This document shows, in pieces, positions 10,575 to 37,569 of a stretch of 64,000 nucleotides of DNA. Under the pieces are notes generated by a model that searched no databases, was not told where the DNA came from, and saw only the letters and a program-made list of their open reading frames with translations. Positions within the stretch are counted from its first letter, which is position 1. The number at the start of each line of letters is the position of its first letter. Made by a program: the position numbers and the translations under genes. This stretch comes from Nitrospirota bacterium (lineage in GTDB: Bacteria > Nitrospirota > Nitrospiria > Nitrospirales > Nitrospiraceae), in contig JAUXQT010000053.1 of assembly GCA_030682135.1 (NCBI GenBank), positions 108,832 to 172,831 of the forward strand, written 5' to 3'.

Positions 10575-10645
10575 GTGCTGAGTAGCGAGTGCTGAGTGCT
10601 GAGCAGCGGATCTGTTATCCGCACTCAGCACTCAGGACTCAGAAC
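10574..10645. repeat. Intergenic hairpin with tandem AGTGCTGAG arms
   Basis: AGTGCTGAGTAGCGAGTGCTGAGTGCTGAG...CACTCAGCACTCAGGACTCAG. Confidence 0.85.
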
Positions 10646-10664
10646 CTCTAAGGAGCGAACTGTC

Positions 10665-12911
10665 ATGTCGATCGATCTGGCTAAAAATCTCTATGCGAAG
10701 ATGCCCGATGTGTTTGCCAAAGCCCGGAAGAAGTTCGGGCGTGGTTTGACGCTGGCGGAGAAGATCCTCGTTTCACATGCCGACAATTTCGATACCCAGA
10801 CGTGGGAGCGCGGCAAGGCGATGTTGGCCTTGCGCCCCGATCGTGTGGCGATGCAGGATGCGACGGCCCAGATGGCCATGCTGCAATTCATGCAGGCCAA
10901 CAAGAAGCAAGCGGCCGTCCCGAGCACTATCCATTGCGATCACTTGATCCGTGCCGAAATGGGCTCCGAGAAGGATCTGCTTCGTGCGGTGGACGAGAAC
11001 AAGGAAGTCTATAATTTTCTCGCCTCGGCGGCGAAGAAATACGGCATCGGTTTCTGGAAGCCTGGCGCTGGGATCATTCACCAGGTCGTGCTGGAGAACT
11101 ATGCGTTCCCCGGCAGCTTGATCATCGGTACCGATTCTCATACCCCCAACGGCGGCGGACTTGGTGGCTTAGCCATCGGTGTCGGCGGTGCGGATGCCGG
11201 CGAAGTCATGGCCGGTCTGCCATGGGAAGTGCTTCATCCGAAGCTGATCGGTATCCGCCTGACCGGCAAGTTGAGCGGCTGGACCTCGGCTAAGGACGTC
11301 ATCCTGTATCTTTGCGGCCTGCTCACGGTGAAGGGCGGAACGAACAAGATCGTCGAGTACTTCGGCCCAGGAGCCGAGACCATCAGTGCAACCGGTAAGG
11401 GCACGATCTGCAACATGGGCGCGGAGTTGGGCGCGACGACCTCCGTGTTCCCCTTCGACCAGAAGATGGTCGCCTATCTGAATATCACAGACCGGGCAGA
11501 GTTGGCCAATCTTGCCATTGCAAACAAGGCCTTGCTGGTGGCGGATCCAGAGGTCTATCAGACGCCTGAGAAATATTACGACCAGATCGTGGAAGTCGAC
11601 CTGTCGACGCTTGAGCCCCATGTGGTCGGGCCCCATACGCCAGACCTTGCGCGACCCATCTCCAAGATGGCGGCGGAAGCGAAGGAGAAGGGCTATCCGG
11701 TTGAGCTCAAGGCGGCCCTCATCGGCAGCTGCACCAATTCCTCCTATGAAGACATCAGCCGTTCGGCCCACATCGCTCAGCAGGGGTTGAGGGCCGGGCT
11801 CAAAGCGAAGGCCTCGTTTCTGGTGTCGCCAGGTTCCGAGCGCATTTATCACACGATGAAGCGCGACGGGTTCTTGGACACGTTTGAAAAGTTGGGTGGC
11901 ACGGTGTTGTCGAATTCCTGTGGCCCCTGTATCGGACAGTGGAAGCGGGCCGATGGCGTGAAGGGGAAAGCGGATTCGATCGTCAGTTCGTTCAACCGCA
12001 ATTTCCCTGGCCGCAACGACGGCATCAGTGAGACCTTGTCATTCCTTGCAAGCCCGGAAATTGTGACCGCTTATGCCATCTCGGGCGACTTGAATTTTGA
12101 TCCCGTCAATCAGACGCTTAAGGGCGCAGACGGCAAGCAGTTTAAGTTTGAGCCGCCGCAGGGTGAAGAACTTCCAGCCAAGGGCTTCGCGAAGGCTGAC
12201 GAAGGTTTTGTGGCGCCGGCCGCCAACGGAGATGGTTTGACCGTCGACATTCCGCCGACGAGCGAGCGGTTGCAATTGCTGCAGCCCTTCCCGCGCTGGG
12301 ACGGCAAAGATTTCGAAAAGCTCCCGTTGTTGATCAAGACCAAGGGCAAGACCACGACCGATCATATCTCTCCAGCCGGTCCCTGGCTCAAGTATCGAGG
12401 TCATCTCGACAAGATCAGCGACAACATGTTCCTGGGCGCGAACAATGCGTTCTTCCCGGAGCCCGGCAAGGGCACGGATGTGTTAACGGGGGAGACCGGC
12501 TTGACCATGGCGCAGATCGCCCGCCGCTATAAGGCGAAGGGGATCGGTTCGGTTGTGGTCGGAGATGAGAATTACGGCGAGGGCAGCAGCCGGGAACATG
12601 CCGCGATGTCTCCGCGATTCCTCAACGTGCGCGTGGTTATCACGAAGGGTTTTGCCCGCATTCACGAGACGAACTTGAAGAAACAGGGGATCTTGGCGTT
12701 GACCTTCGCTGACCCGAAGGATTACGAGAAGATTGAGCAACAGGACCGCATCAGCGTGACGGGGCTTAGCAGCCTGGCTCCCGGCAAACCGGTGCAGGTG
12801 ACGATACACAAGACGGATGGCACTTCGCTCACCATCCAGGCGAACCATAGCATCACCGATCAGCAGATTGCGTGGTTCAAGGCTGGTTCAGCGTTGAATG
12901 CGCTGAACTGA
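10665..12911 (+). CDS. acn: Aconitate hydratase
   Basis: MSIDLAKNLYAKMPDVFAKARKKFG...IIGTDSHTPNGGGLGGLAIGVGG; ALIGSCTNSSYEDISR; start placed after aaggagcg RBS (track ORF starts inside the repeat). Confidence 0.92.
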   Translation: MSIDLAKNLYAKMPDVFAKARKKFGRGLTLAEKILVSHADNFDTQTWERGKAMLALRPDRVAMQDATAQMAMLQFMQANKKQAAVPSTIHCDHLIRAEMGSEKDLLRAVDENKEVYNFLASAAKKYGIGFWKPGAGIIHQVVLENYAFPGSLIIGTDSHTPNGGGLGGLAIGVGGADAGEVMAGLPWEVLHPKLIGIRLTGKLSGWTSAKDVILYLCGLLTVKGGTNKIVEYFGPGAETISATGKGTICNMGAELGATTSVFPFDQKMVAYLNITDRAELANLAIANKALLVADPEVYQTPEKYYDQIVEVDLSTLEPHVVGPHTPDLARPISKMAAEAKEKGYPVELKAALIGSCTNSSYEDISRSAHIAQQGLRAGLKAKASFLVSPGSERIYHTMKRDGFLDTFEKLGGTVLSNSCGPCIGQWKRADGVKGKADSIVSSFNRNFPGRNDGISETLSFLASPEIVTAYAISGDLNFDPVNQTLKGADGKQFKFEPPQGEELPAKGFAKADEGFVAPAANGDGLTVDIPPTSERLQLLQPFPRWDGKDFEKLPLLIKTKGKTTTDHISPAGPWLKYRGHLDKISDNMFLGANNAFFPEPGKGTDVLTGETGLTMAQIARRYKAKGIGSVVVGDENYGEGSSREHAAMSPRFLNVRVVITKGFARIHETNLKKQGILALTFADPKDYEKIEQQDRISVTGLSSLAPGKPVQVTIHKTDGTSLTIQANHSITDQQIAWFKAGSALNALN

Positions 12912-20118: not shown

Positions 20119-21753
20119 ATGCGTGTATTTCTGATTCATGTGCGCGATCCGCAGTTCTACGCCCTCCCGGCGAAAACCAGAGCGAAAAACGGCCGTATCA
20201 GAGTCATGGGTTTTCCGCCCATCGGCATCATGTCGCTTTCGTCGGTGCTCAAACAGGCAGGCCACGAATGTGTGATGTTCGATCAGGCGAATCCCGATAC
20301 GCCGAACGAGGTCATCCTCGAAGAAATCAACCGGCAGCAGCCTGATCTGGTCGGCCTCAGTTTTCTCAGTACCACCAGTTATCCCTACGCGAAGATCTTA
20401 GCCCGTCAGATTCGTGCCACCAACCAGAAGGTCAAGCTGGCCTTCGGTGGAGTCTTTGCGAGCTTGAATGCCTCATTGGTCAAATTACAGTGCCCTGAAG
20501 TGGATTTTGTCTGTCGAGGCGACGGTGAACAGTTGCTCCTCGACCTCCTTGAAAAGTTCGATGATCCCGCTTCGGTCGCCGGGTTGACCTGGGCTAAGGA
20601 TGGCCAGGTCGTGCAGAACCCAGGACGACCGATGGAGCGCCATCTCGATCAATGGCCTTTCCCGGACCGCGAAGGCCTTCCGCTCGACTTTGTGGAATCG
20701 ATGCCGCTCGATGTGCCGGCGGTGCTGTCGATGGAGCGCTTTACGACGATGCAAACGTCGCGCGGTTGCCCCTGGCCCTGCGTGTTCTGTGACATTCCAA
20801 TTTTTAACGAAGGCAAGTGGCGCGCGAGGACAGCCGCTCATGTGGTGCGCGAGCTGAAGTACCTCGAAGAATGCGGCTACGGGTCCGTCTATTTCGTCGA
20901 CGACCATTTCCTTCTGCAGCCCAAGCGCATCGAGGCGATTTGCCAAGGCGTGATGGACGAGAAGCTCACGATTCAGTGGGGCATCGAAGGACGGGTGGAC
21001 TCCGTCGCGCAGCATTTGTTCCCCGCCATGGCCAAGGCCCATTGCCGGACGGTGATGTTCGGGATTGAAAGCGGGAGCCAAAAGATCCTCGATCGTCTGA
21101 AGAAAGAACAGACGTTGGAGGAAGTGGCGACTGCGGTGAAGAATGCCAAGCAGGCCGGCATTGAAATCGTACATGGTTTTTTCACCGTGGGTAATCCCGA
21201 TGAAACGGTTGAAGATATGAACGCCACGTTCGATCTGGCGTCCAAGCTGCCGCTCGACACCTTCGGCTTCAATCGGCTCTGTGTGTACCGCGGGACTCCG
21301 CTCTGGCAGGAATATGTGAAGCGCGGCTTGGTCAGCGAAACCACCGATTGGTACAAGTATTTCAAGTGCTCGGAGATCGATCCGACCTGCTTGCCTGGCG
21401 AAGTGATCAACGAGGTCCGTCGTCAGGGACTCAAGCGGCTCTTCATCTATAAGCTTCTGCACTATCCTCTGCAGACCGCCAGATTGCTGCGGCGGTTCCT
21501 TCGCTTCATGCCGGCGCGCGATGTAGGCTACCTGATCATCAAGCCGTTCCTAGGCCAGAAGAAGGGCGCCACGAAGGCGGAGGTGCTTTCTCGGGCGGTC
21601 GAGCATGGCGAGATGAAGGATGCGGCGGCACAGATGACTCAGATGACGGACGAAGTGCTTCAGCATGTAATGGAAGAGTCCCGGCTGGAGCGGCTACGCA
21701 TTCAGCAGGAAGCGGAAGGGTCGCGAGAGTTGCCGATGGTCCACAGCCGCTAA
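20119..21753 (+). CDS. B12-binding-domain radical SAM protein
   Basis: N-terminal B12-binding-like fold; SRGCPWPCVFCDIPIF (CX3CX2C); FGIESGSQKILDRLKK. Confidence 0.88.
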   Translation: MRVFLIHVRDPQFYALPAKTRAKNGRIRVMGFPPIGIMSLSSVLKQAGHECVMFDQANPDTPNEVILEEINRQQPDLVGLSFLSTTSYPYAKILARQIRATNQKVKLAFGGVFASLNASLVKLQCPEVDFVCRGDGEQLLLDLLEKFDDPASVAGLTWAKDGQVVQNPGRPMERHLDQWPFPDREGLPLDFVESMPLDVPAVLSMERFTTMQTSRGCPWPCVFCDIPIFNEGKWRARTAAHVVRELKYLEECGYGSVYFVDDHFLLQPKRIEAICQGVMDEKLTIQWGIEGRVDSVAQHLFPAMAKAHCRTVMFGIESGSQKILDRLKKEQTLEEVATAVKNAKQAGIEIVHGFFTVGNPDETVEDMNATFDLASKLPLDTFGFNRLCVYRGTPLWQEYVKRGLVSETTDWYKYFKCSEIDPTCLPGEVINEVRRQGLKRLFIYKLLHYPLQTARLLRRFLRFMPARDVGYLIIKPFLGQKKGATKAEVLSRAVEHGEMKDAAAQMTQMTDEVLQHVMEESRLERLRIQQEAEGSRELPMVHSR

Positions 21754-21756
21754 CGC

Positions 21757-21880
21757 AGGATGCTGAACACGTCCGCCAGCATCGTTCTCGGCTCGCAAGA
21801 ATCCTCAACGTACCCCTGAGGGTACGCCTCCGGTTCTTGCTCTGCCTGCGGCCTTGCTGGACGAACGTGTTGAGCATCCT
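21757..21880. repeat. ~120-bp palindromic intergenic element (family II, copy 1)
   Basis: AGGATGCTGAACACGTCCGCCAGCATCGTTCTCG...CAACGTACC..GGGTACGCCTC...GCGGCCTTGCTGGACG..TTGAGCATCCT; shared with 41524-41643. Confidence 0.85.
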
Positions 21881-21897
21881 GGAAGTCAGTTCTCTTG

Positions 21898-22866
21898 CTA
21901 GACTGCAATTCCCCAGATCTGTTTCGCCGCCAACCCAATCGCATAACTGACGCTCACCGCGACGGTGATGATCACGAGGTTCAGCAGGATCCGGCGTTTC
22001 ATCTCCATCCCAGACAAGAACGCGAGAATCGACGACACGAGGATGACCATGGTTCCCGCCGTCAAGACGGACACCAGTGCGTCCTTCGCGCCGAAGAGTA
22101 CGGGGAGCACCGGAACCAAGGCGCCGATGACATAGGCTCCGCCGACAAATAGGGCCGACTTCAACGGCTGTTCCTGCATCTCCGCCGAGCCGTTCTCTTC
22201 TCCAAGAAATCGCTTTTTTGCCGCTTCCATCGCCCGCACTTCTTTTTCGGAGTTCAGCGCGAGAAACGCCCCGGCTCCCATCGACAATGCGCCGGCCACT
22301 GCGGTGGTCGAGGCGGCGATCAAGACGGTGACGGCGTCGCCAAAGGCGCCGAAGAACCCGCTCACGGCTCCAAGAATTTCCACCAGCCCGTCATTGAGGC
22401 CCAGGAAGATATTGCGAATCTTTTCTGGATTGATTTTTCGCTCGGTCAGTTTCGTGACGAGCACATCTTCATGTTTGAACTCATCTTGCAGGATCCCCTT
22501 GAGGGCTTCGCCCAGTGGTTGATCCTGATAGGAATTCCAGAGGGCGAGATATTTTCTGACTCCGTAGACTTCGATGGCTTCCAAAACAAGATGGACCGCG
22601 GTGGGCCCGAACAGGCGGCAGAGCCATATATAGCACCACAGCTTCAGCCTGCGTCCCAGGTTGAGGCGTTCCAACTTCATGTCGAAGAATTTTTGCCAGA
22701 AGGCCAGGTGCCTGGTTTCGATCAGCACTAATTCATCCAATGTATTTCTGGCATCTGCCTCCGTCGAAATATCCCGCAGTGCTTTGTAGAGCGAAAGGTC
22801 GAAGAGCTCATCCAGGATGAGCAGCCGTGCGAGCCTGGGGTCGTCGCGGTGAGCGGTAGGGATCAT
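21898..22866 (-). CDS. Ferritin-like / VIT1 (CCC1) fusion membrane protein (MbfA-like)
   Basis: N-terminal helical region with E...ETRH and DEFKHED; C-terminal IFLGLNDGLVEILGAVSGFFGAF...GALSMGAGAFLALNSEKEV VIT1-like. Confidence 0.8.
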   Translation of the reverse strand: MIPTAHRDDPRLARLLILDELFDLSLYKALRDISTEADARNTLDELVLIETRHLAFWQKFFDMKLERLNLGRRLKLWCYIWLCRLFGPTAVHLVLEAIEVYGVRKYLALWNSYQDQPLGEALKGILQDEFKHEDVLVTKLTERKINPEKIRNIFLGLNDGLVEILGAVSGFFGAFGDAVTVLIAASTTAVAGALSMGAGAFLALNSEKEVRAMEAAKKRFLGEENGSAEMQEQPLKSALFVGGAYVIGALVPVLPVLFGAKDALVSVLTAGTMVILVSSILAFLSGMEMKRRILLNLVIITVAVSVSYAIGLAAKQIWGIAV

Positions 22867-23096
22867 GCCATTCCAACGGCTTGGATTCGTTGAAAGATCT
22901 GCTGATGGTCGGGCCGATTATAGCAGAGATCCATCTGGTTCTCCCCCTTAAACTCCAGCCGCCTGGCGTTGTTTAGGGCCGATGTCCTGAGAGCGATCGA
23001 GGGCCTGCTATACTTCGGAAGGACTCGTTCCTCCTCATTCCTCTCGGTCGTACATGGATAGATCATGAGCCGGACGTATGAAAGGTCACTGACGAC

Positions 23097-23420
23097 ATGA
23101 CGCAGAAGCGTGAATTCTTCAGAGTTGCGATCGAACGGAATGGCCAGATCAGTCGAGGGTCCGAGGTTGTTCCATGCGAAGTGCTCGACCTGACGGAAAA
23201 GGGATTTCAGATCCGCACGGACCTCGCTAGTGTAATTGGAGACAGGCTTGAACTTGAGTTCCAGCTGACCAAGGGAGCTCCGGTCCACTGCACGGTCGAG
23301 ATTACGTACGCGGCGGCGCCTCAATTCGGCGCCCGCATCACCGGCATTTCTCCCGCGCACCAACTTTGCCTCACTCAGTTCATCGAGCAATTGAACGTGC
23401 TTAACCTCACTGGGTTCTAA
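23097..23420 (+). CDS. PilZ domain protein
   Basis: KREFFRVAIERNGQISRG...VLDLTEKGFQIRTD, PilZ-like RxxxR and D/NxSxxG-type region. Confidence 0.75.
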   Translation: MTQKREFFRVAIERNGQISRGSEVVPCEVLDLTEKGFQIRTDLASVIGDRLELEFQLTKGAPVHCTVEITYAAAPQFGARITGISPAHQLCLTQFIEQLNVLNLTGF

Positions 23421-23423
23421 TTC

Positions 23424-24416
23424 ATGACGACACGTTCCGAGGAATCGAACGGTTCGTCAGGGGAGTCGCCGAGCCTTCAACCATTCTTCTATCTTCTCAG
23501 TGCCGTCCTTCTCCTCAGCACGGTACCGACCGTCACGAAGTTTGTCTTCACACATAGTACGGTGGATCCGCTGGGCATGGCCCTGATTAGAGTGATGATC
23601 GGCTTCGCCTTTTTACTCGCGATTACCCTCGCGCAAGACCGGAGAGGGCTGAGTGGGTTGACCGCGGGGGATCTGTTCAAATTGACGCTCTTGGGAGCGC
23701 TCGGGGTTGGGTCCTACGTGATTGCGGCCTGGGGCCTACGCCTCACCAGCGTCACCCATTACATTGTGATCTACAGTCTGCTCTCACCGATCACGGCGCT
23801 TTTCAGCGTGGTCCTGCAAAAGAGCCAGAGCAGCCCGCTCAAGATTGCCGGTATTGTGACGTCTCTGGTTGGTGGCGGGATTGCGATGTCTGAGAAATTG
23901 TCAAACTTTCAAACCAATTTTGGATTTGGCGATTTCTTGATTCTTATCTTCACGATCATGATGGCCGCGCACCTGGTGGGGAGTGCCGACATCGTGAAAC
24001 GCTTCGGGGCGATGACCGCCAATACGGTCATGTTCGGCAGCAGTGCGTTGCTGCTGGCGGTCGCGGCGTTGGTTTGGGGGCATCTGCCGACCGACGATCT
24101 GTCGATGCCGATCGCTTCCTCCGTGCTGTATATCGGAGTGGCTACGGCCTCCGTCTTCCTCTTGCGCTATCGCGCGCTCCAAACCATTTCCCCTGCGACA
24201 GTTGCGGTGTACCAGAACCTGACCCCTGTCTGTGCGATTCTGTTTGCCTGCTTCTTTTTGGGCGAACCGTTCCAGCTTCATGCGGTGGTGGGTGGTGCGA
24301 TCATTCTCTTCGGCGCCGAATTGGTTCGCCAGGCCAGTCAACCTCAATTGGGCACCAGCTATCTCTGGGCGAAGCGTCGCTTCGGCAGCTTGGCTGGTTA
24401 CCGCATGTCCGCTTAA
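23424..24416 (+). CDS. EamA/DMT-family transporter
   Basis: Multi-TM protein; repeated EamA-like halves, C-terminal AVYQNLTPVCAILFACFFLGEPFQLHAVVGGAIILFGAEL. Confidence 0.85.
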   Translation: MTTRSEESNGSSGESPSLQPFFYLLSAVLLLSTVPTVTKFVFTHSTVDPLGMALIRVMIGFAFLLAITLAQDRRGLSGLTAGDLFKLTLLGALGVGSYVIAAWGLRLTSVTHYIVIYSLLSPITALFSVVLQKSQSSPLKIAGIVTSLVGGGIAMSEKLSNFQTNFGFGDFLILIFTIMMAAHLVGSADIVKRFGAMTANTVMFGSSALLLAVAALVWGHLPTDDLSMPIASSVLYIGVATASVFLLRYRALQTISPATVAVYQNLTPVCAILFACFFLGEPFQLHAVVGGAIILFGAELVRQASQPQLGTSYLWAKRRFGSLAGYRMSA

Positions 24417-24474
24417 TCAGGTTCGCCTCTACGCCTCCAGACACGCGTCTTCCCATCCTTGCGGCCGGCAGCGA

Positions 24475-25152
24475 TCACAGCGCCTTGGTTGGACGCTCCA
24501 GATGATGCCGTTGCTCGGCAGAACGAAGTCGAATCTTGAAAATCACCCGGCGGCTTTTCTCGCGATTGACGATTGCCGTCGCATCATAGATCAGATCTTG
24601 TCTGCCGCGTCCGGTCGCCGACGTGATTTCTTGAAAACATTGATAGGCTGATGGCTCTTTGGTCTGAATGATCTCCATCCCCTTCACCATGACAGCCAGC
24701 GAGCGCTCCTGACTCAACTTGAGATTCAAGGCATCGCTGCCGTGATCATCGGTATGGCCTTCGATGGCAAGCGAGTCGATCTTGTCGCGCAGCGGCCCGC
24801 ACAAGGCTCCGACATAGAAGGGGAGGGCCTCTGCGAGAAACTCATCCGCAGTCGGGGACAACGCGCTTTTTCCAAACTCAAACGTCAGCTTGTTTTCCGG
24901 GACGACAATCAGGAGCGCGAGCGGGTCGCGGGGGTCCGCATCGAGCGAGAGCCCCAAGCGCTGGATATGGTCTTGTAGCGCCGTCTGCACGTCCTCTCTA
25001 TTGCCTTGGAGTTCAGACTGCGCGGCGGAGGAGGTCTTGGTCATCTGTGCCGCGAAGAGCAGGATGAACACGACTGCGAGCGAGGTCATGAGATCGGTGA
25101 TGCCGATGGTGGTGTGAGAGGCGCCGGCTCCCTGTGCGGTTGTGCGCATCAT
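24475..25152 (-). CDS. MotB/OmpA-like membrane protein (ZorB-like)
   Basis: N-terminal TM with Asp GITDLMTSLAVVFILLFAAQM; OmpA region FEFGKSALSP...LAIEGHTDDHGSDALNLKLSQERS. Confidence 0.78.
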   Translation of the reverse strand: MMRTTAQGAGASHTTIGITDLMTSLAVVFILLFAAQMTKTSSAAQSELQGNREDVQTALQDHIQRLGLSLDADPRDPLALLIVVPENKLTFEFGKSALSPTADEFLAEALPFYVGALCGPLRDKIDSLAIEGHTDDHGSDALNLKLSQERSLAVMVKGMEIIQTKEPSAYQCFQEITSATGRGRQDLIYDATAIVNREKSRRVIFKIRLRSAEQRHHLERPTKAL

Positions 25153-26369
25153 TCGGCAGGCCCTTGCGTGGACACCAGCGTTCGTTTCGGCCAGAACCGG
25201 CTGCCTTCGGAGCGTCCGCTGCCGGACGCGGTTCGCTGCTCGGCAAGCTGGTCTGTCAGGCGGCTCATGAGATCGTCAAGGGTTATGGTTGCCTGCGCCT
25301 GCTGGTTGTGCATCGTCTTGAGAAGCGTCGTGAGCTCATGAATCGAGTCGTTCAGGGTGCTCATGGGCGCCGTGAATTCTTCACGGATTACGCGTGGGAG
25401 TTCGGTCGTCATGCGGCGTCCGGTTGCCTGCTCCTCTTGTTTCAATTTCGTAAAGGATCGAACTGCCGATGTCAGCTCGGCAAGAGGAGCCGTCAGGCTG
25501 TCTGTGGCCATCCCTCCGATACGTTCCCTCGGTTCTCCTCCGGCAGTCTGCAGGCCTTTCCCCTGCGCCTGATGCGTCGGGGTGAGTTGTTCAAGCATCT
25601 GCTCCATGGTTTTTCGGGGAAAGAGTTTGTCGATGAGGCTGAGGAACGAATGATGTGCGTTCATCAGCCGGAAGACCATCGGTTTTTCGATGAGCGTGAA
25701 GAGATTGGCGGCGATGAGTCCGACGATGGACGTGAGGAATTTTCCAGCCAATCCGTTGATGAGCCCTTGAATGCCGACAATCTCTTGCCCCTCCGCGTGA
25801 AGTTTGCTGAGACCGATAAATAAGGCGAGGAACGTCAGCAGCAAGCCGATTCCCGTCACCAGGGAAGGCAGTTGGCTGTAGAAGGCCAGATTGACGCGAT
25901 GGCTCAGTAGCGTGTCCTGCGTGAAGATATCTTCCGCGCGGCGGGTGCTGAAAATGCGCGGTTCCACGAACCAGGGGACATGCTCCAGGATCAGCGTTTT
26001 TCGGAATTGCGCCCAGGGCTGCCGAAACATGGGCTCTTGCTGCATGGCCGTTTCGAGGGTGCTCAGGTCATCGCAGTCAATCCGTTTGGGCGCCGATGTG
26101 GGTTGTCCGGCTGGGGCCGTGAGTCCCACCAGCGCACGACTCGTGAAGCGCTCACGATCCACGTCTCCACGCTCATTTGCCAGGGTTGTCAGCATCGGCC
26201 GTACTCGATCAAACGGCCGCTGTGCGCCGGATACTTCCCTGTGTAGCCGCAGGACCTGCCAAAGGAAGAAGAGCACGATCCCGAACGACCCAAGCCAGCT
26301 CAACATCGGGCTTTGGGGCCCTCCGAAGAAGGAGGCATCACGACACAAAAACTCCCACAGACTAGTCAT
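25149..26369 (-). CDS. MotA/TolQ/ExbB-like proton-channel protein (ZorA-like)
   Basis: LPSLVTGIGLLLTFLALFIGLSKL...GIQGLINGLAGKFLTSIVGLIAANLFTLIEK; long coiled C-terminal tail; start placed at MTSLWEF; ATGA overlap with 24475-25152. Confidence 0.75.
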   Translation of the reverse strand: MTSLWEFLCRDASFFGGPQSPMLSWLGSFGIVLFFLWQVLRLHREVSGAQRPFDRVRPMLTTLANERGDVDRERFTSRALVGLTAPAGQPTSAPKRIDCDDLSTLETAMQQEPMFRQPWAQFRKTLILEHVPWFVEPRIFSTRRAEDIFTQDTLLSHRVNLAFYSQLPSLVTGIGLLLTFLALFIGLSKLHAEGQEIVGIQGLINGLAGKFLTSIVGLIAANLFTLIEKPMVFRLMNAHHSFLSLIDKLFPRKTMEQMLEQLTPTHQAQGKGLQTAGGEPRERIGGMATDSLTAPLAELTSAVRSFTKLKQEEQATGRRMTTELPRVIREEFTAPMSTLNDSIHELTTLLKTMHNQQAQATITLDDLMSRLTDQLAEQRTASGSGRSEGSRFWPKRTLVSTQGPAE

Positions 26370-26743
26370 GCTGATTATTGCATCCTTAGTTCGTGCACGA
26401 TGGAATCCTGTACGATTGAATCTCAGGCAAAGGCTTCTCAATTTCCGTGCCGCGCACCAGAGAGGAAGAATCTCTCGAATTTCCCTCAATTTGTTTGCTG
26501 CGTGGAATCTGAATATCGGTTGCCGGGCAAAGAATGCCGGTGATGCCGGCACATTTCGCCTCTAGGAGCCAGAATGACCCGGCTGGTTATTTGTCATAAT
26601 ATGGAGAACGGGGGGACCTTGACAAAATACCTGTATTGACGTACTCCCACTCTCTAGTCAGTAACTTACGATCCGCAATGCTCCGGACCTGAGCGGGGAA
26701 GGATCTCATCCGCGAGGGGAAAACTGCGTCCGGCTCGCTCATC

Positions 26744-29700
26744 GTGTCTTTTCCTCTTTTCGGGACAGACGCCTCTCATTTTTTGCGGGGCTGCCGGGCT
26801 ATGGCAGGGCATGTTCTTATGTCCATGACACAGATACCGATGAACCAGCGTCGATCGATCTCCCTCGCCATTGCCCTTGGAGCGGCGGCGGCCTATGAGC
26901 TGGCATTCGCGCCTCTGTACCAGATAGCGGGCGACGTCGTGGCCGCATTCACCGTGATACCGGTGGCCGTGGTCGGATGGCTGTTGGGGGCTCGTGCTGG
27001 CCTTATTGCCGGACTGCTCGGGAGTTCGCTGAATATCCTGAACTTCACTCTGGTGGGGCAGATCGGGTGGGAGGTTGTGATTGGACGGTGGCCGGCCGTT
27101 CTTGTGAGCCTCGCGGTTGGGGGGATGGCTGGCTGGGCAGGTAAACGTGCCGCCCGTGCCACACGAGAGTTTCGTGAGGCGAATCAAGAGCGGGACAAGT
27201 TTTTCGACCTCTCCATGGACCTTCTTTGCATCGCGGGAACCAACGGCTATTTCAAACGGCTCAATCCAGCATGGGAACGAGCGCTGGGGTTCAGTCGAGA
27301 AGAATTGTGTTCTAAACCCTTTATCGAGTTCATTCATCCCGATGACCGTTCTCGCACGCAAGAGGTCATGGAGAAGCTGTCGCGCGGGGAGCCGGCCATC
27401 AACTTCGAAAATCGATATCGGTGCCATGACGGATCCTATCGATGGCTGACCTGGAATACTCCGGCTCCGGAACAGGAGCCGCCGATGTTTTATGCGGCAG
27501 CACGCGACATTACAGAGCGCAAACTGGTAGAGGAGGCTCTGCGCGAGAGCGAGGAGCGTTACCGGCTCCTCACTGACGCCACGTTCGATGGCATCGCCAT
27601 CCACGATCAAGGGATCATGATCGAAGCCAGTTCAGGTTTGGAACGGATGTTCGGGTATGGTCCGGGAGAACTCATTGGGAAGCATGTGCTGGACCTTGTA
27701 GCCGACGAATCCCGCGAGATGGTCATCGCCAATATGAAGCAGGGAGGGCAAGGTCCGTACGAATCCGTGGGACGGCGTAAAGACGGCTCGATATTCTATG
27801 GAGAAGTCGTCGTCAAACCCTACCGGTATAAGGGGCGGGATCTCCGCCTCGTGGCGGGCCGCGACATTACAGAGCGCAAGCAGATGGAACAGGCGCTGCG
27901 GCAGGCGAACGATGAGTTGGAAGAGCGGGTGGCTCAGCGAACGAAAGAACTCCTGGCGGCGAATGACGCCCTTTGCCACGCTCGGGCATGGCAGCGCGAC
28001 TTGATCGAAGCGATTCCGGGGATTGTGTGGGAGTGCAATGCGCGAACCTGGCGGTTTTCGTTCGTCAACCACCAGGCCGAACTGGTGCTCGGCTATCCCG
28101 TGCAGCGCTGGCTCGATGAGCCGGGCTTTTGGCAAACTCACATACACCGGGACGATCGAGACTGGGTCATCGGGTATTGCCTCGCATCTTTACGGGACAC
28201 ACGCAAATACTCGTTCGAATACCGGATGATTGCAGCCGATGGACGAACCGTGTGGCTCCAGGACATTGTGACGGTAGAGAACGCCGAGCAGGGCCCGGCA
28301 ATTCTGCGGGGCATCATGTTGGACATCACCGAGCGTAAGCGGGCGGAGGAGGCATTGCGGGAAAGCGAAGCGCGCTTCCGGAGTCTGTTCGAGGAGGTGC
28401 CGATCGCGTATCAATCGCTGGACATCGAGGGGCGGTACCTCGATGCCAACAAGGGGCTGTGCACATTGCTCGGATACTCCTCTGCTGAGCTTCTGGGTAA
28501 GCCGTTCGATGACTTTTGGCCCACTGACGCGCGGCAGTTCTTTCCTGATGAACTCAGTCGCTTCATGCGGAACGGCGGCGAGACGAAGCATATCAGGCTC
28601 AGGAGAAAGGACGGGAAGGAAATCGCCGTCATCCTGAACGGCCGTGTCCAGCGCGACCTGAAGGGGAACTTTGTGAGGGCGCACTGTATCCTGACCGATA
28701 TCACAGATCAAAAATTGATCGAGGAGAACTTGCGCCGCTCGAAGATCTTCATCGACTCCGTGCTTGAAAATCTCCCCAGCATGATTTTCGTGAAGGATGC
28801 GAAGGACCTTCGTTTTTTTCGCTTCAATAAGGCGGGGGAGGAGTTGTTGGGGTACCGACGGGATGAACTCTTGGGCAAGAACGACTACGACATCTTTCCG
28901 AAAGAGGAAGCCGACTTTTTCATAACCAAGGATCGGGAAGTCCTGCGAAGCGGCTGTCTGTTGGATATTGCTGAAGAGCCCATTCAGACCAGAGGAAACG
29001 GACTGCGGTTTCTCCACACGAAGAAGATTCCAATATGCGGCACCGATGGCGCGCCGCAATATCTATTGGGCATCTCGGAGGATATCACCGATCGCAAGCA
29101 GGCGGAGGAAGCTCTTCAGCAGAACGAAGCTCGACTAAATGTCGCCCAGCGCATCGCGCATATTGGAAGCTGGGATCTGGACTTGGTCGAGAATGTACTC
29201 ACGTGGTCCGATGAAAATTATCGTATCTTCGAGATCGACCCCGTGCATTTTAGAGCTTCCTATGCGGCTTTCCTTGAGCTGGTGCACCCTGCTGACCGCC
29301 AATTTGTCAACGAGTCGTATACTGAATCGGTCGCCAACAGGACTTGTTATAATATCGAGCACCGGCTGCTTATGTCCGACGGGCGGGTTAAGTTCATTCA
29401 CGAGCAATGCGAGACGTTTTACGCGCCGGATGGCCGCCCAACTCGCTCGATCGGTACGACTCAAGACATCACCGATCGCAAACAGGCGGAGGAGGCCTTG
29501 CGAAAGAGCGAAGAGCAGCTTCGCAAGGTGCTCGAAGAGCGGGAGCAGCTTTCCCAGGACCTCCACGATAATATCATTCAATCCATCTATGCGATTGGCA
29601 TGAGTCTTGAGGAATGTCGCTATCTCTTTCAGGAAGACTATCAGGCAGCTGACAAGAAGCTGGAGCATGCGGTCGCCAGCTTAAACAGGGTCATTTCAGA

Positions 29701-30160
29701 TGTGCGAATCTATATCGTGTGGGATAAACATGACGAGATCAATGGACAACAGTTCTGTGCAAAGCTGGCTGAGCTGGCGGTAACCATGGAGAGTATGCAG
29801 GGGATTCATTTTTCGCTCGATCTTGCTGTGGGCGCCGCGCAGCGGTTGGCTCCCCTGGGAACGTTTCATATCCTTCACATTGTGCAAGAGGCGATGAGCA
29901 ACAGCCTTCGCCACTCAAAGAGCCGAAGCGGTCACGTCTCCCTGCAGATAAAAAATGGGCGCATCTGCCTTGAGATCACCGACGAGGGTGTCGGGTTCGA
30001 TCTTGAGGGCGCTGTCGGATTGGGGCACGGGTTACAGAATATGGCTGCGCGAGCGCACAAGCTTGGCGCGAATTTTCAGATCATCTCACAGCCTGGGTCG
30101 GGAGCCAGGATTCTCGTTGAACTCCCGTTGGAGGATCAGCATGCTCGCGCAAGCAGTTAA
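26744..30160 (+). CDS. Multi-PAS sensor histidine kinase (HisKA_3/HATPase, NarL-type); true start may be 26801 or 26840
   Basis: N-terminal TM region; repeated PAS/PAC (DITERK, DITDQK, DITDRKQAEEAL); DLHDNIIQSIYAIGMSLEE phosphoacceptor; DEGVGFDLEGAVGLGHGLQNMAARA. Confidence 0.9.
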   Translation: MSFPLFGTDASHFLRGCRAMAGHVLMSMTQIPMNQRRSISLAIALGAAAAYELAFAPLYQIAGDVVAAFTVIPVAVVGWLLGARAGLIAGLLGSSLNILNFTLVGQIGWEVVIGRWPAVLVSLAVGGMAGWAGKRAARATREFREANQERDKFFDLSMDLLCIAGTNGYFKRLNPAWERALGFSREELCSKPFIEFIHPDDRSRTQEVMEKLSRGEPAINFENRYRCHDGSYRWLTWNTPAPEQEPPMFYAAARDITERKLVEEALRESEERYRLLTDATFDGIAIHDQGIMIEASSGLERMFGYGPGELIGKHVLDLVADESREMVIANMKQGGQGPYESVGRRKDGSIFYGEVVVKPYRYKGRDLRLVAGRDITERKQMEQALRQANDELEERVAQRTKELLAANDALCHARAWQRDLIEAIPGIVWECNARTWRFSFVNHQAELVLGYPVQRWLDEPGFWQTHIHRDDRDWVIGYCLASLRDTRKYSFEYRMIAADGRTVWLQDIVTVENAEQGPAILRGIMLDITERKRAEEALRESEARFRSLFEEVPIAYQSLDIEGRYLDANKGLCTLLGYSSAELLGKPFDDFWPTDARQFFPDELSRFMRNGGETKHIRLRRKDGKEIAVILNGRVQRDLKGNFVRAHCILTDITDQKLIEENLRRSKIFIDSVLENLPSMIFVKDAKDLRFFRFNKAGEELLGYRRDELLGKNDYDIFPKEEADFFITKDREVLRSGCLLDIAEEPIQTRGNGLRFLHTKKIPICGTDGAPQYLLGISEDITDRKQAEEALQQNEARLNVAQRIAHIGSWDLDLVENVLTWSDENYRIFEIDPVHFRASYAAFLELVHPADRQFVNESYTESVANRTCYNIEHRLLMSDGRVKFIHEQCETFYAPDGRPTRSIGTTQDITDRKQAEEALRKSEEQLRKVLEEREQLSQDLHDNIIQSIYAIGMSLEECRYLFQEDYQAADKKLEHAVASLNRVISDVRIYIVWDKHDEINGQQFCAKLAELAVTMESMQGIHFSLDLAVGAAQRLAPLGTFHILHIVQEAMSNSLRHSKSRSGHVSLQIKNGRICLEITDEGVGFDLEGAVGLGHGLQNMAARAHKLGANFQIISQPGSGARILVELPLEDQHARASS

Positions 30161-30800
30161 GCCGGTTCGTTTGCTCCTCGTGGACGACCACGAGGTGGTC
30201 CGTATGGGCCTGGACACGTTGTTCCGCAGAGCCGGGACGATTCAAGTTGTGGGCGAAGCTGACTCCGTCGCCTCCGCCGTGACCGAGGCGATCCGGCTTC
30301 GCCCCGACATTGTCCTGCTGGACCTCCGCCTGCCTGATGGCAGCGGCATTGAAGCCTGCCGGGAGATTTTGGGGGCCTGCCCCGATACTCATGTCGTCTT
30401 TCTCACGTCGTTTGCGGATGAGGATGCGGTGCTGTCGACCACGTTTGCCGGTGCGAAGGGGTATCTCTTGAAAACGATCGGGGGGAAGGCCTTGGTTCAG
30501 GCCATTCACGCCATAGCCGGAGGGCAGTCCATTCTCGATCCCGCCGTGACGGAGTCTGTCCTCGCTCGGATGCGATCCCTCTCGACGATGGACGCCAACG
30601 GTTACAGTATCACGTTGTCTCCCCAGGAGCGGCGGATCTTGCCCTTGGTCGCCGACGGGAAGACCAACAAGGAAATTGCCGCTGTCCTCGGCTTGAGCGA
30701 TAAGACGATCAAAAGCTATCTGTCCAATATCTTCGAGAAGCTTCAAGTCACTAGCCGCACGCAAGTCGCCGCCATGTTTATCAAGCAGCACCCCAACTAG
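30141..30800 (+). CDS. LuxR/NarL-family response regulator
   Basis: LLLVDDHEVVRMGL...DIVLLDLRLPDGSG; HTH LSPQERRILPLVADGKTNKEIAAVLGLSDKTIKSYLSNIFEKL; start set at ATG 30141, overlapping kinase end. Confidence 0.93.
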   Translation: MLAQAVKPVRLLLVDDHEVVRMGLDTLFRRAGTIQVVGEADSVASAVTEAIRLRPDIVLLDLRLPDGSGIEACREILGACPDTHVVFLTSFADEDAVLSTTFAGAKGYLLKTIGGKALVQAIHAIAGGQSILDPAVTESVLARMRSLSTMDANGYSITLSPQERRILPLVADGKTNKEIAAVLGLSDKTIKSYLSNIFEKLQVTSRTQVAAMFIKQHPN

Positions 30801-30971
30801 CTCCATTCGGCGGTAGCTGAGTACCGCCGAAAAATCTTCGCGCCCACCGTCTCCAGCCGATACCGCGCTCCCTATTTTTCGTCCATAGTGCCGGGACGTG
30901 GGGGTCTGATCTATGGCAGTGGCAGCAAAAGCCATCTGTGGCGAAATCAACCAGCGAGCCGCCATCGGCTG

Positions 30972-31760
30972 ATGGCGACGATTCTTGTGATTGCCGAAGG
31001 AGGGATACTGCTTGAGCAGCTCGATGCCGCGTTACGGCAGTTGGGGCATACGGTCACCCTCGCGACCGAGTGGCAGGCCGGGTGGATGTTGTTCGAGTCA
31101 ACGCATCCAAACATCACTATTCTGAGCCTCGACTTTGCAGATGGTGCTGGAATTGAGCTGCTCTGGAAGCTGCGGGCCGCAGATCCCGAAGCGGTTGTCA
31201 TCGGGTTAACAGGGGATGAAACTGGTGGGCAGTATCGTGGAGCCCGTGAGCTGGGCGCCAGCGTGGTACTGCAGAAGCCGTTCATGCCGGCGGATCTGGA
31301 CCAAGCCCTTCGCCAGGCGGCACCATCGGCTGACTCTGCTGGTCCAAGTGGCGGCCCACTGGCCTCTGTCCTTGTCGTCGATGATGAGGTGCCGATCCTG
31401 CAACTCCTTCGTAAGACGCTCGAAGGGGCTGGCTATCAGGTCTGGGAGGCATTGACCGGGCATGAAGGCCTGCGACAGGTCTGTGCACAGTCGATTGATG
31501 TGGTGATCACCGATATCTTGATGTCAGATATGGATGGCCTGGAGATGATCGGGGAGCTGCATCGGAACTTTCCAACAATCCGAATCATCGCGATCTCCGG
31601 CGGAAGCAAATATTTGGATTACTGTTCCGTAGCCAAGATGCTGGGGGCTCACGAAACACTGAACAAGCCGTTTGAGCTGCAAGAGCTTCTGGATGCAGTT
31701 GCTCGCCAGGTCGGTGAAATATCATATACGGATATGAAGACGACCGACCCTTCCTCGTAG
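30972..31760 (+). CDS. Tandem-receiver response regulator (first receiver degenerate)
   Basis: MATILVIAEGGILLEQ... and SVLVVDDEVPILQLLRKTL...DVVITDILMSDMDGLEM; LNKPFELQELLDAV. Confidence 0.85.
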   Translation: MATILVIAEGGILLEQLDAALRQLGHTVTLATEWQAGWMLFESTHPNITILSLDFADGAGIELLWKLRAADPEAVVIGLTGDETGGQYRGARELGASVVLQKPFMPADLDQALRQAAPSADSAGPSGGPLASVLVVDDEVPILQLLRKTLEGAGYQVWEALTGHEGLRQVCAQSIDVVITDILMSDMDGLEMIGELHRNFPTIRIIAISGGSKYLDYCSVAKMLGAHETLNKPFELQELLDAVARQVGEISYTDMKTTDPSS

Positions 31761-31902
31761 ACGCTCACACCACAGGACGAATCTTCTCCAGGGGCATCAA
31801 GAAATGGGGCGTGCCGAGCGCACGACTGGGTGAGGACGGGCGTGGGATTCAACAACCCTATGGGGGATAGCTCGGACCAAAACGGATCCGTAGAACGATC
31901 GC

Positions 31903-32355
31903 TTACCGCAATGAGATGACCAGGACCGTGAGCCACACGAGGGCGAAGATGAATGGCGAGAACAGCAAGTACCACTTCGATGGAACCGCCCCAAATGCTC
32001 TTGAAAGAGGCGAGACACGTTCCCGATAGGGCTTGGTTTGGAGGATCGAAAATCTGGAGTCGTTCGGGTACCGTGTTTGAAGTTCTTGCAGCTTATGTTG
32101 CCAAATGTCTTGAAATAAGACCGTCCTCCCGATCGAGAACATCCAGATCAGGCAGAAGACCGCCGCAGCCAAGTAGACATACCACTTTGACCCGCTCACG
32201 CCCCCGCTGATGTTGACCGCAGAGGCCAACAGGCCGTTGACCGCCAGCAGCATTTGCAGCTTGGTCGTCTTGATCGGATTTTCCTTCGACCATAAATCGA
32301 GGAGCACCTTGTAGTTCAGGTAATCCTGCTCGACTTGGCTCCCCTGATCACTCAT
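31903..32355 (-). CDS. Small multi-TM membrane protein, function unknown
   Basis: Hydrophobic segments LQMLLAVNGLLASAVNI, WYVYLAAAVFCLIWMFSI, WYLLFSPFIFALVWLTVLVISL; start likely MSDQGSQ. Confidence 0.6.
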   Translation of the reverse strand: MSDQGSQVEQDYLNYKVLLDLWSKENPIKTTKLQMLLAVNGLLASAVNISGGVSGSKWYVYLAAAVFCLIWMFSIGRTVLFQDIWQHKLQELQTRYPNDSRFSILQTKPYRERVSPLSRAFGAVPSKWYLLFSPFIFALVWLTVLVISLR

Positions 32356-32447
32356 CGTGCAATCTCCAAGATCGACCGGCGTAGAACTTGCGCAACGATA
32401 AGCAAATAGGACCATTCAGTCAATAGCGTATCCGCACGGGATGACAG

Positions 32448-32567
32448 ATGGCTGATAGCCGATGGCGTATGGTTCGGAACGATGGAGGTGGAGAGCAGGG
32501 AAGAGGCAGTCCATTGTTATCGATAGGTCGTCAGGATTCAGCGTAAGTGAGGCGTCTGATACCATTT
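32448..32567 (+). repeat. Direct repeat copy 1 flanking the MNT/HEPN module
   Basis: ATGGCTGATAGCCGATGGCGTATGGTTCGGAA...GTTATCGATAGGTCGTCAGGATTCAGCG; second copy at 33562-33678. Confidence 0.9.
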
Positions 32568-32655
32568 CAGCTCCTCTAACATTCTCCCTGCGGCGTGACT
32601 TTAGATTTGCTCGGTGCTACCATTCTTTCGTGCTTCGGCGGGGTAATCATCCGGA

Positions 32656-32973
32656 GTGAATCGTATGACAGTGGAAGAAAAGCTACACGTTTCCAAAGAA
32701 ACGATTGCGGAGTTCTGTCGGAAGTGGAAGATCGCTGAGTTTGCGCTCTTTGGCTCCGTCTTGCGCGATGACTTCCGACCGGACAGCGATGTGGATGTGC
32801 TGGTGGATTTTGATGCTCAGGCGACTCCCTCGCTGTTTGATTTTGTTGAAATCGAGGAGGAGCTGAGCCGACTGGTTGGACGGTCGATTGATCTTGTCGG
32901 AAAATCAGGGTTGAGAAACCCTTTCCGACGCCATGAGATCCTTCGTACGCGGCAGGTGATCTTTGCTGCCTGA
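32656..32973 (+). CDS. MNT-type minimal nucleotidyltransferase (antitoxin/AMP-transferase of MNT-HEPN system)
   Basis: FALFGSVLRDDFRPDSDVDVLVDFD, GSX10DXD motif; overlaps downstream HEPN gene. Confidence 0.88.
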   Translation: MNRMTVEEKLHVSKETIAEFCRKWKIAEFALFGSVLRDDFRPDSDVDVLVDFDAQATPSLFDFVEIEEELSRLVGRSIDLVGKSGLRNPFRRHEILRTRQVIFAA

Positions 32974-33322
32974 GGCGCGTGATGCCGCCCATTTATGGGA
33001 CATGATAGAAGCGGCACGCCGTATCCAGAAATATACAGAGGGACTGACGCTCGATCGGTATCTCAAGGACGATATGGTGCAGTCGGCTGTAGAGAGACGC
33101 CTTGAAATTCTCGGTGAAGCGGCCCGTCGTGTCTCGGATCCGTTCAAGCAGTCCCACCAGGAAATCCCTTGGCAGAAGATCATCGCACAACGGAATGTCT
33201 TGGCTCATGAGTATGGTGACATCGTTCCCATGCTTGTCTGGAAAACGGTCATCACCCATATCCCAATCCTGATTGCCCAACTAGAGCCGCTCATTCCTCC
33301 GGTCCCTCCAGTCACTCCCTGA
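32963..33322 (+). CDS. HEPN-domain (DUF86-like) toxin RNase
   Basis: QRNVLAHEYG matches RX4-6H; LKDDMVQSAVERRLEILGEAARRVS; TTG start in the overlap. Confidence 0.88.
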   Translation: MLPEARDAAHLWDMIEAARRIQKYTEGLTLDRYLKDDMVQSAVERRLEILGEAARRVSDPFKQSHQEIPWQKIIAQRNVLAHEYGDIVPMLVWKTVITHIPILIAQLEPLIPPVPPVTP

Positions 33323-33561
33323 ATCGTGTTGATGAAGAGTTGAACGATTCGCTGATACGCCAGAGCGCTCGCTTCAGTGCCTCCGCGCAACCCTCACGGC
33401 TCGGCCAGGCGGAATGCCTTCGGAAATTCCCTCGCAGACCCGGTCAGTTTCTGCTTTCTGATCCTCGGCGTGGTCCCACGCCTCCGGTGACCTCCGCTCC
33501 CGCCAGGCCCCACCACCAGCGACAACAGGAAACTCAGAATGCCACGGTTTTCATCGAGCGT

Positions 33562-33678
33562 ATGGCTGATAGCCGATGGCGTATGGTTCGGAAGATGGAG
33601 GTAGGGAGCAGGGAAGAGGTCGCCCGTTGTTATCGATAGGTCGTCAGGATTCAGCGGAAGTAAGGTGTCTGACACCAG
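33562..33678 (+). repeat. Direct repeat copy 2 flanking the MNT/HEPN module
   Basis: ATGGCTGATAGCCGATGGCGTATGGTTCGGAA...GTTATCGATAGGTCGTCAGGATTCAGCGGAAG; roughly 90% identical to 32448-32567 by hand alignment. Confidence 0.9.
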
Positions 33679-33769
33679 TTTTTCCCTTGATGTCATGTCT
33701 GTTTTCCGAAGCTAGCCGCATGTGCTACGGTCATAGCAGTTAAGAAAGGCCTATCAGGAGGTTAATCCA

Positions 33770-34732
33770 ATGAATGACTCAGTCGAGTGCCCAATCTGTC
33801 GGATGCGATGTAATGACGCGCGGCATCTTGGCGCTAAAGATGTTACAGAGTACGACTGTCCTCGATGTGGAAACTATTCGATCACTCACCAGGCCGTACT
33901 TAATATCGAGAATTCAGAAATGAGCAAGCAGGATAGAGCTAAGGTGGCTGCATATCTGAGAGAAAGGACTTTGCGGGGCGACTTACGCATTAGAATATTA
34001 AGTCAGCAGTTCCCCGACATGGAATTCGACACACCTGTAGCTACGATAAGTGAGATCATTAAAGATCATTTCCCTCGTACCGTCAGCGAGAGGCTTGATC
34101 GTGCTTTGAAAAACATTCACAGACTTTCTGAGCATTTAGGGGACGGAATTGATTTAGATCTGGAAATTGATGGTCCGGTGTTGTTTGCAGAGCATAAGGA
34201 TTCTTTCGATTTCATTGCGGACACATTGCAAGAGGCTGGATGGGTGAAGCTCAATCCCGTATTTGGCACACACGGAATTGTGCTGACCGCCCGTGGGCTC
34301 GAACGAATTGCAGAGTTGGAGCGGAATATCGTCGGCAAAGAATCCAAGCAAGCATTTGTGGCGATGTGGTTTGATAGTAGCCTTGCTAAGGTCTGGGAGG
34401 ACGGGTTTGAAAAATCCTGTGATGCTGCTGGCGGGTACAAGGCATTGCGCATGGATTTGACGGAACACAACCAAAAGATTTGCGATGCCATAATCGCAGA
34501 AATAAGAAAAAGCCGCTTTGTCGTAGCAGATTTCACTGGCCATCGGGGAGGAGTCTATTTCGAGGCGGGATATGCTCTGGGGTTAGGTATCCCTGTTATC
34601 TGGACGTGTCGAGAAGACGAGTTGGAGAAGACCCATTTTGATACGCGGCAGTACAACCACGTTGTTTGGAAGGATGAAAAAGATTTATTTGTGAAGCTCA
34701 AACGACGAATCGAAGCAACTATTTCAGCTTAG
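33770..34732 (+). CDS. Zinc-ribbon protein with C-terminal nucleoside 2-deoxyribosyltransferase/TIR-like domain
   Basis: CPICRMRC...YDCPRCGNYSIT; C-terminal FVAMWFDSSLAKVWEDGFEKSCD...EIRKSRFVVADFTGHRGGVYFEAGYALGLGIPVIWTC; aggaggt RBS. Confidence 0.72.
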   Translation: MNDSVECPICRMRCNDARHLGAKDVTEYDCPRCGNYSITHQAVLNIENSEMSKQDRAKVAAYLRERTLRGDLRIRILSQQFPDMEFDTPVATISEIIKDHFPRTVSERLDRALKNIHRLSEHLGDGIDLDLEIDGPVLFAEHKDSFDFIADTLQEAGWVKLNPVFGTHGIVLTARGLERIAELERNIVGKESKQAFVAMWFDSSLAKVWEDGFEKSCDAAGGYKALRMDLTEHNQKICDAIIAEIRKSRFVVADFTGHRGGVYFEAGYALGLGIPVIWTCREDELEKTHFDTRQYNHVVWKDEKDLFVKLKRRIEATISA

Positions 34733-34792
34733 GTTGTTCCTTCACCGAAAATTCTGTCGTTGGCGGTCTTTACTGTTCACTCTCTATCACGG

Positions 34793-34888
34793 CGGAGCGG
34801 GTGCAGGTGCTCCCTACTGTGCGCATTGACCGAGCACATTCTGATCGTGCGCGGTCAGCGAGCAAGGGGAGCATCTGCCCCGCTCCCT
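34793..34888. repeat. Structured intergenic element with conserved core (family I, copy 2)
   Basis: Outer arms GGAGCGGGTGCAGGTGCTCCCT / AGGGGAGCATCTGCCCCGCTCC; core CGAGCACATTCTGATCGTGCGCG at 34831-34853. Confidence 0.85.
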
Positions 34889-34900
34889 TGACTCCAAACA

Positions 34901-34928
34901 AAAAGGCCACCGTTTCCGGTGGCCTTTT
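34901..34928. terminator. Bidirectional terminator-like hairpin
   Basis: AAAAGGCCACCG-TTTC-CGGTGGCCTTTT. Confidence 0.85.
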
Positions 34929-34953
34929 CATTACTTCCTCTTCCTGATCTGGT

Positions 34954-35049
34954 AGGAGTGGTACGCGGGTGGTTCCTATTGCGCGCATCGAACGAGCACA
35001 GTTTTATCGTGCGCGTTCTGCGAGCACGGGAACCACCCCGCGCTGCTCC
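34954..35049. repeat. Structured intergenic element with conserved core (family I, copy 3)
   Basis: Outer arms GGAGTGGTACGCGGGTGGTTCC / GGAACCACCCCGCGCTGCTCC; core CGAGCACAGTTTTATCGTGCGCG at 34993-35015. Confidence 0.85.
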
Positions 35050-35053
35050 GTTC

Positions 35054-37569
<2,516 letters not shown>

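Follow-up and report, generated by a model that had tools for sequence, protein, structure and literature searches.

The nearest worked-out analogue of the protein described herein is, judged by its overall design, Swarozyc, a one-gene TIR-like NADase (DUF4062) whose winged sensor binds the phage portal (PMC13174449). In deoxyribosyltransferases (NDT) and in DNPH1, a tyrosine is bonded to the glutamate and the enzymes are specific for 2′-deoxy substrates, whereas NADase TIR domains usually carry Phe or Ala (Thoeris TIR study, PMC11204291). Based on the architecture, predicted active site and genomic surroundings of a gene from a Nitrospirota bacterium, we propose that its product is an uncharacterised single-gene abortive-infection (anti-phage) effector, a reading to which we assign a probability of roughly 0.57.

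The gene and the features discussed below lie within the window, which is the whole stretch of 64,000 nucleotides that was analysed:

32656-33322: MntA/HepT-like (type VII) toxin-antitoxin pair (profile matches, motifs)
33770..34732, + strand: zinc ribbon-winged helix-TIR/NDT-like protein, 320 aa (ORF translation and AlphaFold)
33788..33871, + strand: zinc ribbon, residues 7-34, with C7, C10, C30 and C33 (Cys conservation, weak profile similarity)
34082..34333, + strand: winged-helix domain, residues 105-188 (AlphaFold of residues 1-190, Foldseek)
34349..34720, + strand: TIR/NDT-class (TIR-DRHyd) domain, residues 194-317 (AlphaFold, Foldseek, Pfam/PADLOC/profile matches)
34355..34357, + strand: codon of the beta-1 residue Phe196, which takes the position of the tyrosine in NDT (98% of family members have Phe)
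34562..34564, + strand: codon of Glu265, the predicted catalytic glutamate (YFEAG; invariant, aligned with the DNPH1/NDT Glu)
34900..34929, no strand assigned: terminator-like hairpin with T runs, between the gene and the convergent ahcY (read from sequence)

The open reading frame and the C-terminal motif quoted in a first-pass annotation are both present as described. The sequence AGGAGG occurs at 33756-33761, 8 nt 5′ of the ATG. Because a homologue that is 74% identical, the closest among the matches listed, shares both ends of the gene, we do not regard this as a chance open reading frame. The AT-rich codon use noticed earlier is also apparent in numbers: the GC content is 47.0% compared to 57.0 ± 2.0% for the 41 other genes of the window, and GC3 is 48.3% compared to 69.7 ± 5.2% (z = -4.1), the lowest value of all 42. 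The second and third lowest GC3 values belong to the MntA and HepT genes, which flank the gene upstream, while the convergent ahcY-metK genes lie on its other side. The adjacent cassette, previously described as a toxin-antitoxin system, is a real MntA/HepT pair, with motifs that look intact (GSxxxxxxxxSDxD and RNVLAHEY) and a GC3 that marks it as foreign as well. MNT-HEPN was considered as an obligate partner and rejected, given that it lies near just 3-4 of about 110 loci.

Several other elements were observed in this region. A small membrane protein encoded at window positions 31903-32415 matches the octameric 8xMP family below threshold, and two more 8xMP matches are present in the cargo of the ahcY site described below. 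Between the gene and ahcY (window 34790-35050) there are two copies of a REP-like repeat, palindromic in appearance when read from the sequence, the first of which has 36 matches genome-wide.

An AlphaFold model of the full 320-aa protein, built with 93 family sequences, has a mean pLDDT of 94.4 and places a zinc ribbon, a helical linker, a winged helix and a parallel alpha/beta domain of the TIR/NDT class in this order. The four-Cys N-terminus of the first-pass annotation corresponds to the zinc ribbon, whose residues C7, C10, C30 and C33 are kept in 79-89% of 101 family sequences and whose profile similarity to the zinc ribbons of solved proteins is weak. These cysteines are lost in one Nitrospirota sub-lineage (L009-L011), and thus the zinc ribbon is not essential. 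What had been called a helical middle is accurate for the linker, but the rest of that region is a winged-helix domain. Specifically, residues 1-190 modelled separately (pLDDT 95.1) yield top Foldseek matches that are nearly all winged-helix proteins (probability ~0.99, with a modest E of ~0.04).

For the C-terminal half, structure prediction and Foldseek agree with the proposed NDT/TIR-class fold, and the conserved Glu is in place. The best matches of the full model in the PDB are TIR-APAZ (SPARTA), DNPH1, NDT and SARM1-TIR, with a probability of 1.00 and modest E-values (best 8e-4); a TIR domain ranks first among them. In sequence profile comparisons with solved structures, the domain matches DNPH1 and NDT (E = 2e-4 to 6e-4) and not TIR, and the window protein has no sequence match to Pfam TIR families. 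The Pfam family Nuc_deoxyrib_tr (PF05014) covers residues 229-283 at E = 1e-5 with 25.9 bits, just below the 28.8-bit cut-off, and it is also under the curated cut-off in the whole-genome search; at E<0.01 it matches 86 of 93 family members. Comparison with an NDT profile by hhalign is significant at low probability, with beta-1 outside the alignment. The PADLOC 'Effector TIR' model, which we take to be a CBASS effector model, matches 92 of the 93.

Asp254, Glu265 and Asp291 are invariant across 101 family sequences, in part by selection, because the relatives were retrieved with search patterns containing the Glu and HFD motifs; all three residues are also kept in 11 sequences that were not selected by pattern. 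Glu265 aligns with the nucleophile of DNPH1 and NDT, with the ExG motif present. In the HMMER alignment, Ile241 occupies the position of rat DNPH1 Asp69. The DNPH1 chains in this alignment are presumably D69 variants. Phe196 occupies the position of the tyrosine in NDT, an equivalence drawn from motif and secondary structure rather than from superposition, and true NDTs of the same phylum carry IYLAGP with Tyr at the beta-1 place. Thus, the protein departs from NDT enzymes at the beta-1 Tyr (PMC11204291), and it combines the features of TIR NADases, namely a TIR-like fold, the Glu, and Phe or Ala at the beta-1 position. Taken together, Phe196, Ile241 and Glu265 suggest a pocket for NAD(P)+ or another ribonucleotide. 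Judged from these residues, the pocket looks more like that of an NAD-cleaving TIR than that of a deoxyribosyltransferase. Because the two pocket positions are unlike deoxyribosyltransferases and resemble TIR NADases, NAD(P)+ appears to be a better guess than dNTPs as the substrate.

A scan of genome contigs revealed at least 546 relatives, of which the best 80, from many phyla, were kept; the neighbour counts reported here rest on these loci. The distribution within the phylum is patchy (28 of 396 Nitrospirota genomes). The family gene is carried by 31 viral contigs, many of which are probably prophages, and by five plasmids, where it is located near SEFIR, ThiF, TIR and NACHT genes. PHROG 16139, whose function is listed as unknown, spans nearly the full length of the window protein (E = 8e-67). 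Among phage records the window protein has no match and a Bacillota relative gives just weak C-terminal matches, and E. coli, tried as a source of annotated context, gave no match. NCBIfam has no name for the family, whose members have so far been annotated as hypothetical proteins or as deoxyribosyltransferases.

The two halves of the protein differ in conservation. Mean identity of the family to the window protein is 56% in the catalytic half and about 24% in the sensor half (zinc ribbon 27%, middle 24%). Stops have been reported within some homologues, yet one of these relatives (G414, L169) has an open frame of 321 aa, and therefore we do not take the stops as decay. A homologue at G253:C1:1198411-1199113 is left as fragments in several frames and has apparently decayed.

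The surroundings of the family gene, in which genes were called mechanically, are enriched in known defence genes, as the first-pass annotation anticipated. For 27 loci with long flanks outside Nitrospira, the genes within 2.5 kb (122 proteins) matched 203 PADLOC models at 1e-15, compared to 60 for genes more than 6.5 kb away (133 proteins), a rough measure because these models are redundant. Type I R-M genes lie less than 7 kb away on the same strand at 8 of 75 loci among the best 80 relatives, and the other 67 have no complete type I R-M system nearby. At five loci (L038, L039, L046, L068 and L111) the family gene has hsd genes on both sides, often at a distance of 10-30 bp, and there is precedent for defence genes that sit between an hsdS and an hsdR gene (PMC12255303). 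HsdR occurs 8 times in 1.05 Mb of flanking sequence compared to 46 times in 100 Nitrospirota genomes (~260 Mb), which is an enrichment of about 40-fold between sets that differ in taxa. The genome containing the window was searched for HsdR and has none; the R-M link therefore has no bearing on this genome. In addition, the type I R-M operons at L038 and L039 hold an Abi_2/AbiD gene, and their hsdM starts with an HTH-like sequence.

No recurrent partner is present at more than five of the 75 loci, and therefore the family gene behaves as a one-gene module. Neither a cyclase nor a reverse transcriptase is among the top 25 neighbour families listed. The lack of a constant partner and of an NCBIfam name both agree with the earlier suggestion of an undescribed single-gene effector; the effector role itself is what we consider probable.

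Strong homologues exist in only 6 of 175 Nitrospiraceae genomes. All six copies are convergent with ahcY and adjoin its stop, or lie one gene away in the case of G151. The site is the hypervariable interval from ahcY to a B12-binding radical-SAM gene (window 21753-35054, loci L157-L196). In several relatives it is empty, with 269-397 bp between the two genes, compared to 13 kb in the window, and in other genomes it is filled with as much as 13 kb of genes, most of them unique. Three MNT-HEPN pairs, four PIN domains and methyltransferases are found among this cargo together with metabolic genes; indoleamine 2,3-dioxygenase and VIT-family genes recur. We rejected the idea of a pure defence island based on this mixed cargo, and that of a tRNA as the integration site because the window contains none. 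Likewise, ahcY/metK was rejected as a functional partner and is treated as a site rather than an operon, because the association is seen in Nitrospira alone and the genes are convergent.

The six genes at this site form one clade (97/97). Within it, the window copy groups with copies from two other genera (74-78% identical) and not with the copy from its own genus (54%), whereas the ahcY identities are the opposite, with the same-genus gene being closer (94.5% compared to 85%). This conflict between the trees suggests that the family gene has been exchanged between genera at a fixed ahcY site. Two copies differ from the others in form: the one in G251 (L183, about 9593-11928) is split by an insertion of 1.4 kb that carries a Mutator-family transposase, and for the one in G151 just residues 142-320 align.

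Given the NDT and DNPH1 profile matches and the wide reach of Nuc_deoxyrib_tr in the family, these proteins might instead be nucleotide-pool enzymes, such as deoxynucleoside or dNMP N-hydrolases, that are regulated or tethered by the winged helix and zinc ribbon. As effectors, such enzymes could deplete deoxynucleotides rather than NAD+. We regard this as unlikely, because both pocket residues examined differ (NDT Tyr to Phe, DNPH1 Asp69 to Ile), a TIR domain is the best fold match, and patchy, horizontally moving, defence-linked genes are unlike housekeeping genes. It seems more doubtful still that the protein is a ligand-sensing transcription regulator, in which the winged helix and zinc ribbon would sit on DNA and the C-terminal domain would be a non-enzymatic nucleotide sensor. 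The winged helix does resemble MarR-type regulators, and inactive TIR-DRHyd-SLOG members are known as sensors (PMC9503650). However, it is the catalytic half that is conserved, with an invariant Glu, conservation is lowest in the half that would bind DNA, and no conserved target gene lies alongside.

Membership of a multi-gene system, as a CBASS-type effector, a retron type II effector or a type I R-M component, would fit the PADLOC label, the five members within type I R-M operons, and the joining of NDT-like and winged-helix domains in retron II effectors (PMC12548924). No partner is shared by more than five of the 75 loci, and the top 25 neighbour families include neither a cyclase nor a reverse transcriptase, which makes this improbable. 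We also give little credence to the view that the gene is variable-region cargo without any part in defence, such as a phage moron or a gene that serves against some other stress. The metabolic genes at the ahcY site would be in line with such a role, but the links to defence genes in other phyla and to type I R-M operons argue against it. Several points count against the abortive-infection effector that we favour: the Foldseek E-values are modest, the cargo of the ahcY site is mixed, HsdR is missing from the genome of the window, most loci are without a complete type I R-M system nearby, and one lineage has lost the zinc cysteines.

If the protein is an abortive-infection effector, the most likely mechanism is that its N-terminal half, which evolves fast and comprises the zinc ribbon, the helical linker and the winged helix, holds it inactive until this half recognises a phage-made or phage-induced trigger, which could be a protein or a nucleic acid. 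Trigger binding would then gather several copies, completing the active site of the TIR-like domain. NAD(P)+ or some related ribonucleotide would be cleaved by Glu265 at its N-glycosidic bond, and this would stop the cell before phage maturation.

A broader and more tentative picture, possible rather than probable, is that of an unnamed, widespread family of immune NADases, each encoded by one gene and equipped with a zinc ribbon and winged-helix sensor. Its members would often be borne by prophages and sometimes reside in type I R-M operons as a possible back-up when restriction is disabled, with one Nitrospiraceae lineage tied to the ahcY site and exchanged between genera. If this is true, a broadly distributed one-gene immune effector from many phyla would be added to the TIR/DRHyd class, and the family would offer a test of how NAD+ and deoxynucleotide substrates are split within that class (Phe versus Tyr). 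It would also define an exchange site in Nitrospira. These bacteria are environmentally important nitrifiers, and to our knowledge their phage defences have been little studied.

Compared to known systems, the family shares with NDT and DNPH1 (PF05014) a flavodoxin-like fold, a nucleophilic Glu in ExG and profile matches of E ~1e-4 to 1e-5, but the window protein falls below the curated Pfam cut-off and has Phe for the NDT Tyr and Ile for DNPH1 Asp69. DRHyd conflict-system effectors (PMC9503650, PMC7159879) and AbiJ-NTD1-NDT fusions (PMC3710099) are similar in that a predicted NAD- or nucleotide-cleaving effector is fused to a sensing domain; the combination of zinc ribbon and winged helix was not found in the open-access portion of this literature. 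The TIR domains of SPARTA (TIR-APAZ) and SARM1 are the top fold matches and share the beta-1 Phe and catalytic Glu, but the window protein has no Pfam TIR sequence match and no Argonaute or APAZ partner was seen. In retron Ec86, the order of the NDT-like and winged-helix domains is reversed. Retron type II effectors otherwise have the same two domains (PMC12548924), whereas no reverse transcriptase recurs among the top 25 neighbour families here. CBASS effectors differ in that this family has no recurrent partner, and the neighbours in the window are MntA/HepT, 8xMP and ahcY, with no CD-NTase cyclase. We do not file the protein as a member of the NDT, DUF4062, CBASS or retron systems. The window protein is unmatched by Pfam DUF4062 at E<0.01, and 1 of 93 family members matches (E = 0.003). 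Swarozyc differs in that its auxiliary domain is C-terminal, whereas the winged helix of the present protein lies on the N-terminal side of the enzyme domain and is accompanied by a zinc ribbon. Nevertheless, both are encoded by one gene, combine a winged-helix auxiliary domain with a TIR-like domain that is distantly related to TIR/NDT and has one conserved Glu, and are distributed patchily across phyla near defence genes. Thus, the protein is analogous to Swarozyc (DUF4062) rather than a member of that family.
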